Shown piece after piece: positions 1 to 7,989 of a stretch of DNA of 64,000 nucleotides. Under the pieces are notes generated by a model. The model searched no databases, was not told the origin of the DNA, and saw nothing but the letters and a program-made list of their open reading frames with translations. The position numbers and the translations under genes were made by a program. Location: the NCBI RefSeq assembly GCF_014385065.1, contig NZ_JACRTA010000001.1, forward strand, positions 372,001 through 436,000, read 5' to 3'. Source of the DNA: Lentihominibacter hominis. GTDB taxonomy: Bacteria; Bacillota; Clostridia; Peptostreptococcales; Anaerovoracaceae. Each line of letters opens with the position of its first letter. The stretch's first letter is position 1.

Positions 1-3000
1 TATTGCCTGAAAGGTTCAGGTTCTTCACCGTTCCCTTCCCATCTATGCTGCCAAACAGTCCCTGATCATCTTTTGCCGCTGATATAACCAATCCTGTTAT
101 TTTTTTGCCTTTGCCGTCAAATGCTCCAGAATATGGATCATTACTGTTATTTCCTATAGGATACCATGTCTCTCCTGTCAGCGTTATATCCTGTATAAGC
201 TGCGCATCTGCAGAGGTCATTCCTCCGTTTACTTTATTGACAAACCATTTCAGCTGGGCTTCACTGGAAATCTCATATACGCCTCCCTTGAATGAAGGTT
301 CATCACACTGGCTCTCCGGCCATATACCTGCATCTTCAGCAGTTTTGACAGTGCCTGCTTTTGCTGTTATTTCACCCGGCATATTTTTACTTGACACGAT
401 AACACTTATATCTTTTCCCAGATCCTCATTTGTCAGCAGATAGCTTTCTTCTGTCGCTGTTTCTATTTTTTTAGCTCCTCTATACCATTGATATTTCAAA
501 GCAGAGGCAGATTCACTTCCTGAATATTTTACCGTGAGCTTATGCCCCTCTACCGCATATCCGTTTATTTTCGCAGTCCCGGTGAATCCTTCTATTTCTT
601 CTGATTTCCCCTTTACTATTCCTGACAGACTGTTGTCCATACATTTAGCATATACCTTTGTTCCTACGAGTTCATTAGGTATAGTATATGTATCAGAAAC
701 AGCCAACACCTCCTGCTCTCCACTCCAGTCACGATACCATACAAAGATAGGCTCTTTACTGTTTCCGCTCTTATAAGAAGCCCTTACAGTATCGCCTACA
801 CATATGGACTTCGGAAGCGTTAAAGATCCATCTATTGTCTTTTTTAAATCTGTCATTTCCGTAAGAGACTCTGCCTTGATCAGAATCTCTGCAAGAGGAA
901 CTGCTTCTCCTCCGTTGGATCCGCTTGCTGCGATATCGAGAAGGTTCAAATAATAAGCTTCACTTACACCACTGACCATTTCTCCTACGGCTCCGCCTAC
1001 GCGAAATTCCTCGCTGCTTTCAGTCTCTTGATAAGCCCCGCTGACATCGCCTATGCTATACAGTTTTTCTGCCTTAGATCCTACAGTGTTTATTCCCACA
1101 CAGCCGCCTACTCCGCTTCCTCGGCTCACTACATTTCCGGTATTATAAAGAGACAATACATTACTGTCATTGCGGCCTATTATACCTCCTACAAAAGCAG
1201 ACCTACTTTTTGCAGTACTTATAATGTGTCCGCTATTGACACATCTGCTTATATTTCCATCAAAATCTTTATCATTGGTATTGTCTGCAGCTATACCTGC
1301 AGCAAATGTCCCTGTTGCTGTCACCAGTCCGGTATTTACTGATTCCGATATACTGCCGCCCTTGTTTGAGGCAGTTATCCCGGACACATATGAACCTCCT
1401 GAAACATTTCCGTTATTCGTACACTTTATTATGGTTCCGCCTTTTAAATTGACGCCGGATATACCTGATGTATAATTGCCGCCGGATACGGTTACATTGG
1501 ATATCACTTCTGATATCAATCCTTCGTTATATCCTGCTACCGCTCCGCTGTTATCGGCATTTTTGATCAAGCCTGATATAATGACATTTTTGATGCTTCC
1601 TTTATTATAGGCAATCAGCCCGGCTCCGCTGCCTCCTTTTATATAAAGATTGTTTACAGTATATCCGTTTCCGTCCAGCATTCCCAGAAAAGCTTTTTCT
1701 TCACGGTTTCCTCCAATAGGTTCCCACGGCTGATTATTAAGATCCACATCTTCAGTCAGGACACCTTTTATATCAGGGGTATTTTCGGCAGAATCTGCAA
1801 ACCACTTCAAATCTCCCGGTGATTCAAGCTGATAAACGCCCTCTATCTGTTCAGGTGCCTGTTCTGATGCAGTTCCGTCCCATCCGTCTTCCGAAGGAGA
1901 AGGTCCGTCAGGATCTGTTGCGGTCTTATCCGTCTGCCATAAAAGAACCGGGTAGCCATTGTTTATGCCTTCTTTATCAGCAGTAAATAATTCACCCAGC
2001 TCTGATTCTTCCACGCCACATGTGAGGACTTTCAGTTCATCAGATGTCTTAGGCAGAATACTGCCGTTTTGAATAGCATAATCGCCTTCTTTTCCCACAG
2101 CCTCTTCTGCTGTTGAGTCAAGATAATATACTCTGTCAACTGATTCCGGTTTATATCCCAGACTCCCCGCTATGCCGCCGGCATTGCCTACTGCCGCAGT
2201 GCTGACAGAGCCTGCAGAATATGCATTCTTTATATGTCCATATCTGAATTCTCCTACAACACCTCCGGCAACTCCTGCTTCTGCCGATGCCTTTACAGAC
2301 CCTATGCTATATACGCCCTCAACAGTTCCTCCCATATATAGGCTTCCTGTTATTCCTCCAACGAAGCTGGCGCCTTCAACGCTGCCTGCATTATATGAAT
2401 CAGTAAGAGCTTCACTGGCATTGGAGTATACGCGGCCGGCTATACCACCTGCATAATTTCCCGTTGCTGCTACCTTGGCCAGATTAGAACATTTAGAAAC
2501 TGATATGTTGCTGTCCAGCTCTCCTACTATTCCCCCTATATATCCTTTTCCGCTGACTGATACAGATGATGTAGTATGGCAGTTTGTGATGTTTCCTTTA
2601 GAATCCCCTGCAACGGCTCCCACATAATTTGCCGATGACATGATGATACTGTCAGAAATCGTCAGGTTCTTCACTTCTCCGCCTGCTCCCACATATCCGA
2701 AAAATCCCGTATTTGACAGCGCCTTATTATTGATATACAAACCCGAAACAGTATGTCCGTTTCCATCAAAAGTACCTGTATACGCCTTGCTGCTTGATAT
2801 ACCTTTAGGAGTCCATTCATATATACTGCTGCCTACGTCTACGTTTACAGATTCATTTATCCTTATGTCCGCCGTAAGCTTAGCAGAAGCTTTGAGATCC
2901 GCTTCTTTGTTAAACCACATGAGTTCGTCAGACGTACTTATAAGATACACTCCGTCTTTGTCTTTAGACGGCTCATCAGTTGTTTCTCCGTCCCATACAG

Positions 3001-5494
3001 TCTGTATGACAAGGTATGCTTCATCCACTGTCAGATCCGCATAGTTCACCGTAAACTCTCCGCTTACAGATTTATATCCGGCACTCGATACCCTATAAGT
3101 ATAATTCCCGTTAGGCAATGAAAAACTGCCGTCTTTCTCTGCAGTGATAACTGTTTGCGGATATTCCTTGCTTGCCACTGTTATAACAGTATCAGAAGCC
3201 TGCCCTCCTGTCTCTTTGACAAAAGGTATTGATACTTTATATGTCTGCTGCTTCACAAGAGATATGATCTTTTTGTCTGAATCTTTATTTCCCTTTACAT
3301 TAAAAGATCCGCTCTTTGAAGTGTATCCATATGCCTTCGCTTCGTATTGATAAGGGTTTCCGCTCTTAGGCAGACTGTAAGTCCTTCCGTCTGCCATCGG
3401 AGTCTGTTCCCTGCCATCCTTATCTCTGACCGCAAGCTGTATATCCTCAGGCTCTGTTTCAAATACATAATCATATTTTTTCACCTGCAAAGCTGCACTT
3501 ATCTCCTGCCCTCCGTAAGCAACGGTAAATTCTCCGCTTACAGTATCATACTCATCGCATGATACCGTATAACTGTAATTACCGTTTTTTAGATAATAAA
3601 TATTTGAGTCGCCTTCAGACGGATCTACGATTTTTCCTGCCGAGTCTTCCACTGTCAAGTGGGCTTCTGCAGGATTGATAATAAACTTTACTGCATACTG
3701 TGAATTGGGGTCCTGCCATCCCAATATCGGCATTCCCCCATCCGGATCTACGGCAAAATTCCCTCCAAGTTCCGCAGCAAAGTCCGCAGACTTCATTTCA
3801 CCGGATGTTTTAGATGAAATCCCTTTTGTATCCTGAGAATAACCATCTCCTTGATCGCATGCACTTTCAAGGTAATAGCAGCTCTCTGCTTTTGCAAGTC
3901 CTGTTGTGGAAGTTCCGCTATAATTCTTGCCGCTGCTGTTTCCTATCACGCCGCCGCATGTTACATCGGAAACATTAGTATCCTTACTTACATTCCCCGT
4001 ATTATAACAATGCTTAACATCTAAACTATAGCTGACGCCGGATACTCCACCTGCTATTCCTCCTATTCCTTTAGCATTAGTATCATTGAAATCATTAACA
4101 GGAGAAATCCCCTTGATACTGCCTGAGTTATAGCATGATTCAACTGTTGATGATTTTCCTGCCGAATCGCCTAAAATACCGCCGACTCCGTATATCCCTG
4201 TTATATTCCCTGTATTAAAAGACTTTTCAATAGTTCCGTCAAGACTTCCGGAAATACCGCCTGTGCGTTTCAATGTACTCGTTATGCCCGCCGTATTGCC
4301 GCACATAGAAATAACTGAACTGCTGGATGCCCCACCTGCTATTCCTCCTGTGCAGTATGCATATGAACTCGGCTTACCTTTGTTTACTATTTGACCATTA
4401 TTGAAACAATTGGAGATATCAGCGCCCATGGCTGTCGCCGTTATTCCTCCCACGTAATCTCCGCAGCCTGATATTTTACCGTTATTTGTACATGATACTA
4501 TGCTGCTGCCTGCTCCTGCTCTTGAAGCAATGCCTGCAGCATATCCCTTACTAACAGCTGTGACATTCACATTGTTTACACAGTTTTCAATGCTAAAAGC
4601 CTCCCCATAACTGATTACACCGGCAGCATAGCTGGTGCCGGATGTGCTTGTAGTAACACTCCCGTTTAGTGTGAGGTTTTTTACAGTTGCGCCCTTGGCA
4701 TATCCTATGAATGCCTGATAAGCTTTATCGTTATTGATATTAAGGCCTGTAATTTTCTTTCCGTTTCCGTCAAATGTCCCGCCGTAAATCACATAATCAC
4801 TGTATGTATTGACAGTCTGGCCTATAGGAATCCATTCCTTATCTGAAATATCTATATCCTCTTCCAGTACTGCGCATAACTCGGATGTACTTTTTTTGGC
4901 GCTGCCGTTTACTTTCTCGGCAAACCACCGAAGCTGAGAAGCATTTTCAATCTCATAGGGCTCCGTTTCGGTGCCTTTGCCTGCAGGTTCCGAATCGTTT
5001 ATTTCCGCCGTCTTTACTGCCGCATCCCCTATTTTTGCCGATTCTTCGTCTTGGATCACCGTTACGAGAACTGTCTTGCTCTCTGCTGAAGCTTTGCTTT
5101 CGCCCAAAGTATTTGTCACTGTAACTCTATAATACGTTTTTCCCGCAGTATCAGTGTCCGGAAGATATTCCTTTTCAATGGAATTTTCTATATCAGAAAA
5201 AATCTTTCCATCTGTACTTTGCTGCCACTGATACGAAATATTTCCTCCATCTGAAGATGATGCCTCAATACAAAGAAGCTCTGCTTTTTCTCCTTTTTCA
5301 TATGAGATTTCCTCTTCTGGAATATCCTTCTCTATTTTCGGTTCCGCTGCTGTCCCCATTTCCCTGCTGATAACTGTCGGATCTGATGAAGATATCTCCC
5401 CACCATATGCCCATGACGGCATCAGAGAAGTGAACAGCATCATAAGAATCAATACTGCTCCTAAACTTTTACCTTTTCTTCTTCTCTCACTCAT
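1..5494 (-). CDS. Giant secreted GLUG-repeat surface protein, C-terminus beyond window edge
   Basis: At least 1,831 codons are open with no stop before position 1, so the protein is larger still. It starts at ATG 5494 behind GGAGG six bases upstream. Residues 1-31 are a signal peptide (basic RRRKGK, then a hydrophobic stretch ending PSWAYG). About residues 50-130 are an Ig-like domain with an ISYQWQQSTDG core. Then come repeated beta-helix modules, each opening with a Y-I-L-WF element and a 'GTFDGNGKKITGL'-type GLUG motif, followed by many GGI.G...G.I..C.N.G turns (about 175-540, 845-1130, 1217-1515 and from 1738). Between them lie three PEGA/carboxypeptidase-regulatory-like beta domains (about 600-815) and two more Ig-like domains (about 1555-1675). 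GLUG proteins are usually cell-surface or adhesin-like; the ligand is unknown. It lies 38 bp downstream of the FecR/DUF4430 gene and so falls under the same cobalamin riboswitch. The anchor (LPXTG, SLH or similar) would be in the missing part. Confidence 0.88.
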   Translation of the reverse strand, partial: MSERRRKGKSLGAVLILMMLFTSLMPSWAYGGEISSSDPTVISREMGTAAEPKIEKDIPEEEISYEKGEKAELLCIEASSSDGGNISYQWQQSTDGKIFSDIENSIEKEYLPDTDTAGKTYYRVTVTNTLGESKASAESKTVLVTVIQDEESAKIGDAAVKTAEINDSEPAGKGTETEPYEIENASQLRWFAEKVNGSAKKSTSELCAVLEEDIDISDKEWIPIGQTVNTYSDYVIYGGTFDGNGKKITGLNINNDKAYQAFIGYAKGATVKNLTLNGSVTTSTSGTSYAAGVISYGEAFSIENCVNNVNVTAVSKGYAAGIASRAGAGSSIVSCTNNGKISGCGDYVGGITATAMGADISNCFNNGQIVNKGKPSSYAYCTGGIAGGASSSSVISMCGNTAGITSTLKRTGGISGSLDGTIEKSFNTGNITGIYGVGGILGDSAGKSSTVESCYNSGSIKGISPVNDFNDTNAKGIGGIAGGVSGVSYSLDVKHCYNTGNVSKDTNVSDVTCGGVIGNSSGKNYSGTSTTGLAKAESCYYLESACDQGDGYSQDTKGISSKTSGEMKSADFAAELGGNFAVDPDGGMPILGWQDPNSQYAVKFIINPAEAHLTVEDSAGKIVDPSEGDSNIYYLKNGNYSYTVSCDEYDTVSGEFTVAYGGQEISAALQVKKYDYVFETEPEDIQLAVRDKDGREQTPMADGRTYSLPKSGNPYQYEAKAYGYTSKSGSFNVKGNKDSDKKIISLVKQQTYKVSIPFVKETGGQASDTVITVASKEYPQTVITAEKDGSFSLPNGNYTYRVSSAGYKSVSGEFTVNYADLTVDEAYLVIQTVWDGETTDEPSKDKDGVYLISTSDELMWFNKEADLKASAKLTADIRINESVNVDVGSSIYEWTPKGISSSKAYTGTFDGNGHTVSGLYINNKALSNTGFFGYVGAGGEVKNLTISDSIIMSSANYVGAVAGDSKGNITNCHTTSSVSVSGKGYIGGIVGELDSNISVSKCSNLAKVAATGNYAGGIAGRVYSNASEALTDSYNAGSVEGASFVGGITGSLYMGGTVEGVYSIGSVKASAEAGVAGGVVGEFRYGHIKNAYSAGSVSTAAVGNAGGIAGSLGYKPESVDRVYYLDSTAEEAVGKEGDYAIQNGSILPKTSDELKVLTCGVEESELGELFTADKEGINNGYPVLLWQTDKTATDPDGPSPSEDGWDGTASEQAPEQIEGVYQLESPGDLKWFADSAENTPDIKGVLTEDVDLNNQPWEPIGGNREEKAFLGMLDGNGYTVNNLYIKGGSGAGLIAYNKGSIKNVIISGLIKNADNSGAVAGYNEGLISEVISNVTVSGGNYTSGISGVNLKGGTIIKCTNNGNVSGGSYVSGITASNKGGSISESVNTGLVTATGTFAAGIAADNTNDKDFDGNISRCVNSGHIISTAKSRSAFVGGIIGRNDSNVLSLYNTGNVVSRGSGVGGCVGINTVGSKAEKLYSIGDVSGAYQETESSEEFRVGGAVGEMVSGVSEAYYLNLLDIAASGSNGGEAVPLAEILIKAESLTEMTDLKKTIDGSLTLPKSICVGDTVRASYKSGNSKEPIFVWYRDWSGEQEVLAVSDTYTIPNELVGTKVYAKCMDNSLSGIVKGKSEEIEGFTGTAKINGYAVEGHKLTVKYSGSESASALKYQWYRGAKKIETATEESYLLTNEDLGKDISVIVSSKNMPGEITAKAGTVKTAEDAGIWPESQCDEPSFKGGVYEISSEAQLKWFVNKVNGGMTSADAQLIQDITLTGETWYPIGNNSNDPYSGAFDGKGKKITGLVISAAKDDQGLFGSIDGKGTVKNLNLSGN

Positions 5495-5532
5495 TTCTTG
5501 CCTCCAATATATCTTCTTCCCATCTCTAAGTG

Positions 5533-6717
5533 CTATATCCCATTGCACGTATAATTCCAGACTATTACATCGCCCTTTTTCATTTCGTAAGAGCTGCATC
5601 CGTAATTAGGCGCCCAGCCATTGACAGTATACATCCAGCCTGATCTGCTGCCGCAGTCAAACTCATAAAGATTATTTATCCCTTCTATATAATAACTGCC
5701 ATACGCAGGCGTATATGAATATTCCAGCTGAATTCCGGCTGAGCTGCAGGCTCTTTTCAGCACATCAAAACCTGTTTCTCCATCTCTGAACTCAACTGCA
5801 GATGAAGCCAGTATTACTCCATTTGAAGGCACGAATCTCTCCTTTCCGGCTTTGAGACTTTCCATATTGCTGAGTATAGAGTCGCATCTTATCTGTATAG
5901 TGCAGGTATTTATCTTTTCACTGATACCCGATGTCTTAGAGTCTGAGGACAGACCCTTTTCTCCTGCTTCTATGACTTCTCTCTTATGATCTTCCTCTTC
6001 TTTCTCAGTCTTTTCTATTTGCTTTTTTCTACCGGCAGTAACTTTATTAATATCATCTTTGCTGAAGCAAAGATGATGTCCGTCTTTATCAGCTATCAGA
6101 GCCTTATCTATATTAAAATCATTAAGGGATTCCGCTTCAAGATCTGATATTGATATGTCTGACTTTACAATATCTGCTGTTTTCCCTTCTTTTACCGTTT
6201 CTTCAGCTTTTTGCGTCTTTATTTCGACAGACCCCTTAAAAACTTTTATTCCTGTAGATCCTGTCTGCATATTTACAGAAAATACAGCATCGTCAGACGA
6301 TATTTCACATTCTCCGGCTGTAATCCCATCAAACTGTGAACCTTCGTTAAGTATGGAAAACAGCTCTCCGCTGTCCATCTCTATAGACAAAGATTCCTCA
6401 TCAAGCCCATCCAGCCCGGTTCTTGTATTCTCCGCCATGTAAACTGTGTTTTCCCCTGCTTCTACAGACGCACCGGAGCTTGATCTTGTCTCAATCATAT
6501 CATCTGTACGCAAAGCAGCTTTATTTTCAAGTGTATATGATATACCGTCTCTTTTGACATTCACTACACCTGTCACATCATCTGCTTTCGCATAACTTCT
6601 CTGAGCTCCGAACCAGCCCTTAATACCTGCAACAGTCATAAAACCGCAAAACGCTATGACAGCTATCAGTATCACCATAATGATATTAAGTAGTTTCTTA
6701 TTATTCTTTACTCTCAC
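5533..6717 (-). CDS. Membrane-anchored FecR-domain / DUF4430 (transcobalamin-C-terminal-like) protein
   Basis: This is a 394-residue protein. Residues 9-31 are one hydrophobic segment, giving an N-terminal membrane anchor or uncleaved signal. About 40-190 form a FecR-like beta domain (DDVTGVVNVKRDG, then repeated short beta strands and GSTGIKVFKGSVEIKT). A Lys/Glu-rich linker around 225-265 (KKQIEKTEKEEEDHKR) leads to a C-terminal DUF4430 domain, about 272-394, with the hallmark SGWMYTVNGWAPN and DVIVWNYTC motifs. DUF4430 resembles the C-terminal domain of eukaryotic transcobalamin/intrinsic factor, so corrinoid binding is plausible but not shown. The start has AGGAGGA directly upstream. It is the first gene after a cobalamin riboswitch and its terminator, and is followed 38 bp on by the GLUG protein. 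The inferred role is extracytoplasmic corrinoid capture or a B12-regulated surface scaffold. A general ligand-binding role for DUF4430 is the alternative. Confidence 0.87.
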   Translation of the reverse strand: MRVKNNKKLLNIIMVILIAVIAFCGFMTVAGIKGWFGAQRSYAKADDVTGVVNVKRDGISYTLENKAALRTDDMIETRSSSGASVEAGENTVYMAENTRTGLDGLDEESLSIEMDSGELFSILNEGSQFDGITAGECEISSDDAVFSVNMQTGSTGIKVFKGSVEIKTQKAEETVKEGKTADIVKSDISISDLEAESLNDFNIDKALIADKDGHHLCFSKDDINKVTAGRKKQIEKTEKEEEDHKREVIEAGEKGLSSDSKTSGISEKINTCTIQIRCDSILSNMESLKAGKERFVPSNGVILASSAVEFRDGETGFDVLKRACSSAGIQLEYSYTPAYGSYYIEGINNLYEFDCGSRSGWMYTVNGWAPNYGCSSYEMKKGDVIVWNYTCNGI

Positions 6718-6738
6718 TTTTCCTCCTATTTAACGCAT

Positions 6739-6768
6739 AATAAAAAGCGTCCTTTCCGAGGGCGCTTT
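6739..6768 (-). terminator. Riboswitch-linked intrinsic terminator
   Basis: On the minus strand AAAGCGCCC pairs with GGACGCTTT (9 bp, one C-A mismatch) around a 7-base loop, followed by five T. It ends only about 21 bases before the FecR/DUF4430 start codon, downstream of the cobalamin aptamer. It is therefore best read as the expression platform of that riboswitch: transcription would stop when the ligand is bound. Confidence 0.75.
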
Positions 6769-6904
6769 ACGATAATATACATAACACAAAACTGAGCAGA
6801 TATAAATCCTCACATTTTTACACAAAAAATAATAATTGAATTTTGCCGTAATGCGCTGCTCAATTTTTAACGATATACTCCGTCTCACCTCAGAAGACTT
6901 ACGC

Positions 6905-7105
6905 ATCAAGCTGACAGGTCTACCGACTTAATCCTTATCATGGAGCCATCCCGAACATAATAATTCTCCAAAACCTACTGAGACGTCTTCCCGAAACTTC
7001 CGCTTCAGTGACTTGCCTTGCAGTCATACAACTACATAGCCTGTCCTTTCGTAAATATCACGGTTGCTGAGACACAGTGCCGGATTCTCACCGGCTTCCG
7101 ATATA
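6905..7105 (-). ncRNA. Cobalamin (B12) riboswitch aptamer
   Basis: The minus strand shows, in order, the conserved parts of the cobalamin aptamer: GCCGGTGAGAATCCGGCACTG (7077-7097 as its complement), CAGCAACCGTGA, then AAGTCACTG and CGGGAAG, and finally the B12 box AAGTCGGTAGACCTGTCAGC (complement of 6910-6929). A promoter lies just upstream and an intrinsic terminator between the aptamer and the FecR/DUF4430 start. The exact aptamer ends are approximate. Downstream TGAGAC (near 6880-6890) is complementary to GTCTCA segments inside the aptamer and may take part in the switch. Confidence 0.9.
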
Positions 7106-7136
7106 TGTCTAACTTGAAATATTCATTTATATACCT

Positions 7137-7165
7137 ATGCTATAACTGTTGCTATTTTTTGTCAA
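7137..7165 (-). promoter_or_regulatory. Promoter of the cobalamin-riboswitch operon
   Basis: A minus-strand TTGACA (complement of 7160-7165) is followed 17 bp later by TAGCAT (complement of 7137-7142). Transcription would begin just before the riboswitch aptamer. The promoter lies immediately beyond the stop of the ykkD-like gene, which separates the two riboswitch units. Confidence 0.65.
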
Positions 7166-7172
7166 TGTTTTT

Positions 7173-7487
7173 TTACCCACACAGCCTCAGACCTATAACT
7201 CCTGCAATTACCAGCAGTATAAAAAATATTTTTTTCTTATCTCTGCTTTCTCCGAACACCAAAATTCCAAACAGAACTGTAAATACAGTCCCAAGCCCTG
7301 TCCAGACAGCATATGCTATCCCCAGAGGCAGAGTTCTGGTAGCCACCGACAGTAGGAATATCCCGAGCCCTGTTATGAAAACTGTAAGCACTGTAAACTT
7401 TTTATTCTTAAATCCGTCAGACAATTTCATACAAACGGTAAATCCCAGTTCACAGAAAGAAGCGCATACTAATACTATCCACATCAT
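7173..7487 (-). CDS. ykkD: SMR-family exporter subunit, YkkD-like (paired guanidinium exporter)
   Basis: A 104-residue small multidrug resistance protein with four hydrophobic helices and the SMR glutamate in the first one (CASFCELGFTVCMK). The LGIAYAVWTGLGTVFTVLFG segment is typical of helix 3. Its ATG overlaps the TGA of the upstream SMR gene by 4 bases, so translation is coupled. SMR pairs under guanidine-I riboswitches form heteromeric guanidinium/proton antiporters in the cytoplasmic membrane. That function is inferred from the pairing plus the riboswitch, not from the protein sequence alone. General quaternary-ammonium export is the alternative. Confidence 0.88.
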   Translation of the reverse strand: MMWIVLVCASFCELGFTVCMKLSDGFKNKKFTVLTVFITGLGIFLLSVATRTLPLGIAYAVWTGLGTVFTVLFGILVFGESRDKKKIFFILLVIAGVIGLRLCG

Positions 7488-7837
7488 TGCTGCTCACCTT
7501 CATCTTCCTCACAAAATTTCAGCCCTATTATTCCGGTTATCAGCACCAGCAGAGACATAACTTTTGCCACGCTCAGTATTTCATCAAGCAAAATTATACC
7601 GATTGCCGTAGTTCCGGCTATCCCTATCCCAGTAAAAATCGCATATGACATGCCTATACCGAATGTCCGTATACCTCTTTCCAACAGAAAAAAGCTAAGT
7701 ATAAGAAATGCTATAGTTACTATTGAAGGCACAAGGACTGTAAAACCATGAGACTGTTTCATGAAATACGCCCATATTATTTCTATAAGCCCTGCGGCAG
7801 CCAAACATATCCACGCCGTTTTATTATCTTTCTTCAT
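7484..7837 (-). CDS. ykkC: SMR-family exporter subunit, YkkC-like (paired guanidinium exporter)
   Basis: A 117-residue four-helix SMR protein with the conserved glutamate in helix 1 (AGLIEIIWAYFMKQSHGF) and helix 3 GIGMSYAIFTGIGIAGTT. The tail is acidic (KFCEEDEGEQQ). The start has AGGAGGAAAG upstream. It is the first gene after the guanidine-I riboswitch and is translationally coupled to the second SMR gene. Paired SMR proteins work as asymmetric dimers. The predicted role is export of guanidinium from the cytosol when the riboswitch senses it. Confidence 0.88.
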   Translation of the reverse strand: MKKDNKTAWICLAAAGLIEIIWAYFMKQSHGFTVLVPSIVTIAFLILSFFLLERGIRTFGIGMSYAIFTGIGIAGTTAIGIILLDEILSVAKVMSLLVLITGIIGLKFCEEDEGEQQ

Positions 7838-7861: not shown

Positions 7862-7976
7862 AAAACCCGGGAAAAGCAGAATACTTCTCCCGGGCTTTTA
7901 TCCCTCCGTGTCCCTCTTTTGAGGCAGCTTCCTCTCGGACCAGCACTTGCTGCAAACGCAAATCGGAACCCTAGAA
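7862..7976 (-). ncRNA. Guanidine-I (ykkC) riboswitch with overlapping terminator
   Basis: The minus strand carries the near-invariant ykkC-motif blocks: CTAGGGTTCCGA (complement of 7963-7974), GGTCCGAGAGGAAGC, then GGACACGGAGGGATAAAAGCC and CCCGGGAGA. The last block pairs with TCCCGGG followed by five T (down to about 7861) to form the terminator. Guanidinium binding would keep the terminator open. It directly precedes the paired SMR genes, the commonest context for this riboswitch. Confidence 0.96.
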
Positions 7977-7989
7977 AGCATTTTTTTAT

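Follow-up and report, generated by a model that had tools for sequence, protein, structure and literature searches.

We analysed a 64,000-nucleotide stretch of the Lentihominibacter hominis genome (contig NZ_JACRTA010000001.1, positions 372,001 to 436,000; hereafter, the window), whose left end carries a cobalamin riboswitch followed by genes for two surface-type proteins. The ensemble probably belongs to a system for capture and import that is repressed by B12: surface domains resembling transcobalamin would gather corrinoid and supply it to an importer of the energy-coupling factor (ECF)-CbrT type. On the minus strand, a promoter-like site is followed by a cobalamin aptamer, a terminator-like hairpin, the gene for a 394-aa protein and, 38 bp further on, a giant open reading frame (ORF) (Table 1). 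The original prediction, made from the sequence of the window, had proposed a B12-controlled surface system, a Gram-positive counterpart to capture by BtuG-type proteins. The riboswitch subclass, the fold of the DUF4430 domain and the CbrT-like ECF clusters of relatives, described below, all support this proposal.

The predicted cobalamin aptamer scores above the gathering threshold of the Rfam covariance model RF00174. The B12 box, AAGTCGGTAGACCTG, is intact as claimed and identical among close relatives. Alignment of the window RNA with nine close relatives (A3, 10 sequences) gives 62% mean column identity, with an invariant core common to all. On the 3′ side of the B12 box lies a hairpin, GTCTTCTGAGGTGAGAC, whose loop, CTGAG, is complementary to the CTCAG of L5, giving the window RNA an L5-L13 kissing loop. 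A downstream complement to L5 of at least 5 nt was present in 24 of 40 readable riboswitches; 300 shuffles averaged 10.1 and never exceeded 17. This control serves as a guide only, since the riboswitches are related and a few of the 24 complements fall outside the expected hairpin. (The set comprised 72 riboswitches, namely the window's and 71 matches at E≤0.01 to the model R1 introduced below, 32 being without a readable L5.) The pairs vary by subclass (CTCAG/CTGAG, CCAAG/CTTGG, TCCCGC/GCGGGA), which is how a kissing loop should behave. When the leader 3′ of the aptamer is folded alone, P13 (6898-6886) pairs with the terminator (6749-6764) and neither hairpin forms. This suggests that the window riboswitch is an OFF switch. 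The terminator-like hairpin (6768-6744) was found by folding only and is not listed by the scan that gave the promoter-like site.

The subclass model R2, derived from riboswitches that lie close to DUF4430 genes, was searched in 346 genomes of one family and yielded 142 matches at E≤1e-6, 68 of them with at least 108 bits. Leaving out those of G001, G010 and G060 and two of G031, whose context had already been seen, as well as G387:C121:4228, the remaining 62 strong matches fall into 59 regions, none much longer than 7 kb and several of them short contig ends. DUF4430, toroid, EcfT or EcfS genes follow the riboswitch in 22 regions; 11 have a match to an ATP-binding cassette (ABC) ATPase only and 26 have none of the genes scored. 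Some regions contain cobalamin synthesis genes: cbiD, cbiG and cbiH in L160, cbiB in L180, and cbiL with a CbiK-like chelatase (the latter below the curated cut-off) in L202. The presence of the subclass upstream of such genes provides independent support for its ligand class. Judged from these sequence contexts, the window-type RNA is most likely a genuine B12-class element, whose ligand response is predicted. The idea that the subclass marks DUF4430 clusters only was rejected on the gene content of these 59 regions. Elsewhere, strong R2 riboswitches precede large surface-type proteins with immunoglobulin-like (Ig) domains plus leucine-rich repeats (LRR; L208) or a thioester domain (L186), with no DUF4430 in the stretch read. 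In L199, the riboswitch is followed by genes for proteins of 393 and 367 aa, neither with a Pfam match at E≤1e-5, which possibly constitute a further B12-regulated family.

The 394-aa protein carries a DUF4430 domain (Pfam, E 1e-19) and a sub-threshold Pfam match to FecR; no NCBIfam family was found for it at E≤0.01. Kinship of DUF4430 to the C-terminal half of transcobalamin and intrinsic factor, part of the original prediction, was borne out by structure comparison: DUF4430 has the fold of the beta domain of haptocorrin, intrinsic factor and transcobalamin. When the DUF4430 alignment was compared by sequence with solved structures, transcobalamin was not among the matches, which were weak and unrelated; hence, the relation to the carriers is visible by fold comparison alone. 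Among the candidates scored, 3,468 homologues were found at E≤0.001. The domain is predicted to bind corrinoid.

The giant ORF starts at position 5494 and has 1,830 residues inside the window, a portion that returns sub-threshold Pfam matches only. It had been described as a GLUG beta-helix protein; the basis for calling it a repeat protein is a glycine pattern found 13 times, and Pfam returned no GLUG motif. Beyond the portion present in the window, the near-identical protein P0121 has a DUF4430 domain (2078-2194), an alpha/alpha toroid (2270-2578) and a hydrophobic C-terminal segment. By way of P0121, the window giant most likely also ends in DUF4430 plus toroid, a feature that the original prediction overlooked. 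A putative signal peptide and surface anchoring can be read off its sequence. Neither window protein, the giant being covered in part, gave a Pfam match at E≤1 to a beta-propeller or to DUF4465. PQQ_2 beta-propeller domains occur in some giants of related clusters (L028, L050, L126); as BtuG of Bacteroidetes is a B12-binding beta-propeller, these giants may, by analogy, represent an additional type of B12 binder.

The link to ECF transport comes from relatives. A scan of genome contigs with the DUF4430 alignment gave at least 594 loci, of which the top 80 were analysed; DUF4430 genes were counted in 77 of these, EcfA in 68, EcfT in 67, EcfS in 58 and toroid genes in 45, all five occurring together in 36. 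The gene profiles derive from those same 80 loci, but their representatives are named ECF ATPase, ECF S component and CbiQ by Pfam and NCBIfam (for CbiQ, one of four tested falls below cut-off). In a comparison of an S-component alignment (A5, 28 sequences, relatives only) with solved chains, 6fnp_A was the best match (E 1.1e-19), followed by RibU (2.8e-8). Thus, by sequence, the S component of the relatives is nearest to the B12-specific CbrT among solved chains. Some related clusters contain an EcfA1A2 fusion.

ECF-type B12 transporters beside DUF4430 genes are what the original prediction had suggested looking for, together with further cobalamin riboswitches. The latter were sought with R1, a model from alignment A2, and found in 50 of the 80 loci. 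RNAalifold on the mixed A2 gave just 12 pairs, making R1 mostly a sequence model, built moreover near DUF4430 genes; its matches were therefore cross-checked, by coordinates and strand, against an independent Rfam search (rows over the Rfam cut-off, six sub-threshold rows left out). Of 78 R1 matches, six with E above 0.01 were left out; among the matches listed, 58 of 71 agreed with Rfam, in 45 loci, whereas genome-wide density would lead one to expect about 1.8 Rfam matches in the 1.28 Mb of loci. In 30 of the 80 loci, an Rfam-agreeing riboswitch shares its strand with a DUF4430, toroid, EcfT or EcfS gene and precedes it by no more than 1 kb. Back-to-back riboswitch pairs are present in L015, L024 and L026, one member facing a toroid giant and, in L024 and L026, the other facing a DUF4430-ECF run. 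Three consecutive cobalamin riboswitches precede one DUF4430 gene in L125 (7834-9031) and in L003 (7502-9764), with short ORFs between them in L003.

In the mechanism that we propose, ample cobalamin would cause the aptamer to fold, L5 (CUCAG) to kiss L13 (CUGAG) and the terminator to form, stopping transcription; with cobalamin scarce, the P13 strand could pair with the terminator and the operon would be transcribed. Its products would be the membrane-anchored FecR-like/DUF4430 protein and the giant surface protein with C-terminal DUF4430 and toroid, which apparently correspond in fold class to the B12-holding domains, beta and alpha respectively, of transcobalamin and intrinsic factor. Corrinoid bound by these surface domains would then be delivered to an ECF importer whose CbrT-like S component is encoded in the same cluster in relatives. 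A more specific version, to which we subscribe only tentatively, is that of a bacterial transcobalamin counterpart, in which one corrinoid would be clamped between DUF4430 and the adjoining toroid, much as the animal carriers do it, before passing to an ECF-CbrT importer dedicated to the system; DUF4430 at least would then share ancestry with those carriers.

Table 1. Features of the riboswitch-controlled operon at the left end of the window.
Feature	Position	Strand	Remarks
Promoter-like site TTGACA-17-TAGCAT	7137..7165	-	10/12 positions; consensus match only
Cobalamin riboswitch aptamer (RF00174)	6896..7142	-	41.8 bits vs gathering 31.5, E 3.7e-7
L5 loop GTCTCAGCA	7065..7073	-	its CTCAG complements L13 CTGAG
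B12 box AAGTCGGTAGACCTG	6915..6929	-	unchanged in close relatives
P13 hairpin GTCTTCTGAGGTGAGAC, kissing partner	6882..6898	-	6898-6886 alternatively pairs with terminator 6749-6764
Intrinsic-terminator-like hairpin, then TTATT	6744..6768	-	-9.1 kcal/mol; precedes start codon of DUF4430 gene
Membrane-anchored FecR-like/DUF4430 protein, 394 aa, GTG start	5533..6717	-	
N-terminal helix, residues 2-33, putative membrane anchor	6619..6714	-	hydrophobic by sequence
FecR-like beta domain, residues about 70-205	6103..6510	-	
DUF4430 domain, residues 301-392	5542..5817	-	Pfam and fold match
Giant repeat protein, putatively secreted (first 1,830 aa)	1..5494	-	ORF leaves left edge of window

Between the asparaginyl-tRNA synthetase (AsnRS) gene and the B12 operon lie two small multidrug resistance family genes (7484-7837 and 7173-7487, minus strand), a guanidine-exporter-like pair preceded by a Guanidine-I riboswitch (7885-7985, minus strand, 80.7 bits). 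Searching a plasmid collection gave no match to the window.

The original prediction also guessed that an ECF transporter may lie left of position 1. This was approached through the nearest genomes, ranked by lysyl-tRNA synthetase (LysRS) identity among 349 genomes of one family (best, 91%, on which ground none is assigned to the species of the window); the Rfam scan of the neighbour-gene loci covered those other than L120, L121 and L122. In L003 (G003, LysRS 85%), a long FecR-like/DUF4430 protein and a 2,179-residue toroid giant are followed by one gene, a riboswitch and EcfT-EcfA-EcfS-EcfT, and L123 (LysRS 70%) reads LysRS-AsnRS-riboswitch-DUF4430-toroid-EcfT-EcfA-EcfS-EcfT, with one extra ORF after the riboswitch. 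In G382 (L125) and G262 (L126), LysRS 90% each, riboswitches, DUF4430, EcfT, a fused EcfA1A2-S and a giant of the f6 family, with a PQQ propeller by Pfam in L126, come after LysRS. G235 (L128, 84%) has LysRS-AsnRS-riboswitch-EcfT-EcfA1A2-S-riboswitch-DUF4430-giant, and G294 (L127, 88%) has EcfT and EcfA after AsnRS, with no gene labelled DUF4430. The guess fits L003/L117, L123, L125, L126 and L128, relatives with a common neighbour gene; L124 shows no such cluster on its 8.2-kb contig. By analogy, the L003/L123-type arrangement is the best available picture of the region beyond the left edge, where the window's own genome would be expected to carry ECF genes.

Some observations weigh against our interpretation. 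Folded at minimum energy, the whole leader forms neither P13 nor terminator, and the P13-terminator duplex lacked statistical support as a conserved feature, being above shuffles in 2 of the 16 riboswitches with the GTCTTCTG motif to which the test was limited, the window's not among them. As to the importer, G407 (L124, LysRS 90%) has no DUF4430 or ECF cluster at that place on its 8.2-kb contig, and the proteins with DUF4430 in L125, L126 and L128 reach a mere 202-240 aa and are accompanied by other giants, so that these loci are not strict equivalents of the window operon. The window genome might accordingly have a stand-alone surface pair with no ECF module of its own, the giant feeding a BtuFCD-type transporter or none. 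The giant and the ECF genes are indeed separated by a DUF4143 ATPase gene in L003 and by LuxR and esterase genes in L001; yet, EcfT-EcfA-EcfS-EcfT still directly follows the separating genes in both, and we regard a stand-alone pair as unlikely, though worth keeping in mind. The Ig-LRR and thioester proteins downstream of strong R2 matches (L208, L186) fit another alternative, in which the riboswitch is genuine and the surface proteins are adhesins or sensors for some other ligand, B12 acting as an environmental signal only. The repeat-rich architecture of the giant and the signalling type of the FecR-like domain agree with such a role. However, FecR-type signalling is unlikely in the 394-aa protein because few residues precede its membrane helix, and EcfT beside DUF4430 genes in 67 of 80 loci, the CbrT-like S component and the apparent presence of both B12-carrier fold classes speak against such a role; of the alternatives, this one appears the least probable.

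The cluster might instead serve to import not cobalamin itself but a compound related to it, be it cobalt, a flavin, cobinamide or some other corrinoid precursor. The EcfT proteins match CbiQ, annotated "cobalt transport", and for the S component Pfam gives the riboflavin-type S family. A cobalamin riboswitch lies upstream of an ECF cobalt importer in C. difficile (PMC11477304), and CbrT also carries cobinamide (PMC5997447). However, EcfT of the CbiQ type is common to many ECF systems, CbrT is by far a better match to the S component than RibU among solved chains, and a two-domain carrier fold would be needless for a cobalt ion. On balance, a cargo other than cobalamin seems rather improbable, and we favor B12 capture and import.

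Comparison with known systems places the window operon between several of them. The structure 6FNP is ECF-CbrT, the vitamin B12 transporter of Lactobacillus delbrueckii, whose CbrT uses a shared general ECF module and is encoded in a nrdJ-cbrS-cbrT-pduO cluster; the term "DUF" is absent from the text of that paper as available to us (PMC5997447). The related clusters resemble this system in their S component and in having EcfA and EcfT genes, and differ in combining EcfA1A2, EcfT and surface DUF4430/toroid proteins within one cluster. With the animal B12 carriers, DUF4430 shares the beta domain fold; however, the carriers' order, alpha then beta, is reversed in P0121, the domains here sit on giant surface proteins, and the toroid sequence is closer to terpene cyclases. 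We do not class these proteins in the transcobalamin family, as the domain order differs and corrinoid binding is only predicted. BtuG, BtuH and BtuJ are described as Bacteroidetes surface proteins that catch B12 extracellularly and are encoded in riboswitch-regulated loci (PMC8941943, PMC6977713, PMC13398666). Riboswitch-regulated surface capture is what we propose for the window system; BtuG, a beta-propeller, and BtuJ, a DUF4465 jelly roll, differ in belonging to Gram-negative hosts with BtuB/BtuCDF. RUMGNA_00854 of Ruminococcus gnavus (PDB 3u7z) differs in consisting of just one chain, which is short; its entry is titled "putative metal binding protein".

ECF-CbrT importers and the riboswitch-regulated surface B12 binders of Bacteroidetes are already known. 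A survey of gut micronutrients names "CbrUVT" as a B12 uptake system; according to the survey, identifying transport systems of this kind across many gut genomes "remains an open problem" (PMC6593275). In the portions of the open-access full-text literature covered, which takes in few subscription journals and no preprints, we found no DUF4430 or toroid proteins tied to B12 uptake in Firmicutes. What appears to be new is the combination of a CbrT-type ECF cluster with a surface system of DUF4430 and toroid domains, whose putative binding domains are of transcobalamin fold class and which apparently couples surface B12 capture to ECF import. The finding suggests a mode of B12 capture in Gram-positive bacteria and supplies a large gene set, an RNA that would regulate it and a specific hypothesis on binding. 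If correct, gut-associated Clostridia would possess domains similar to those with which human intrinsic factor carries B12, which would bear on competition for the vitamin and on how the animal carriers arose.
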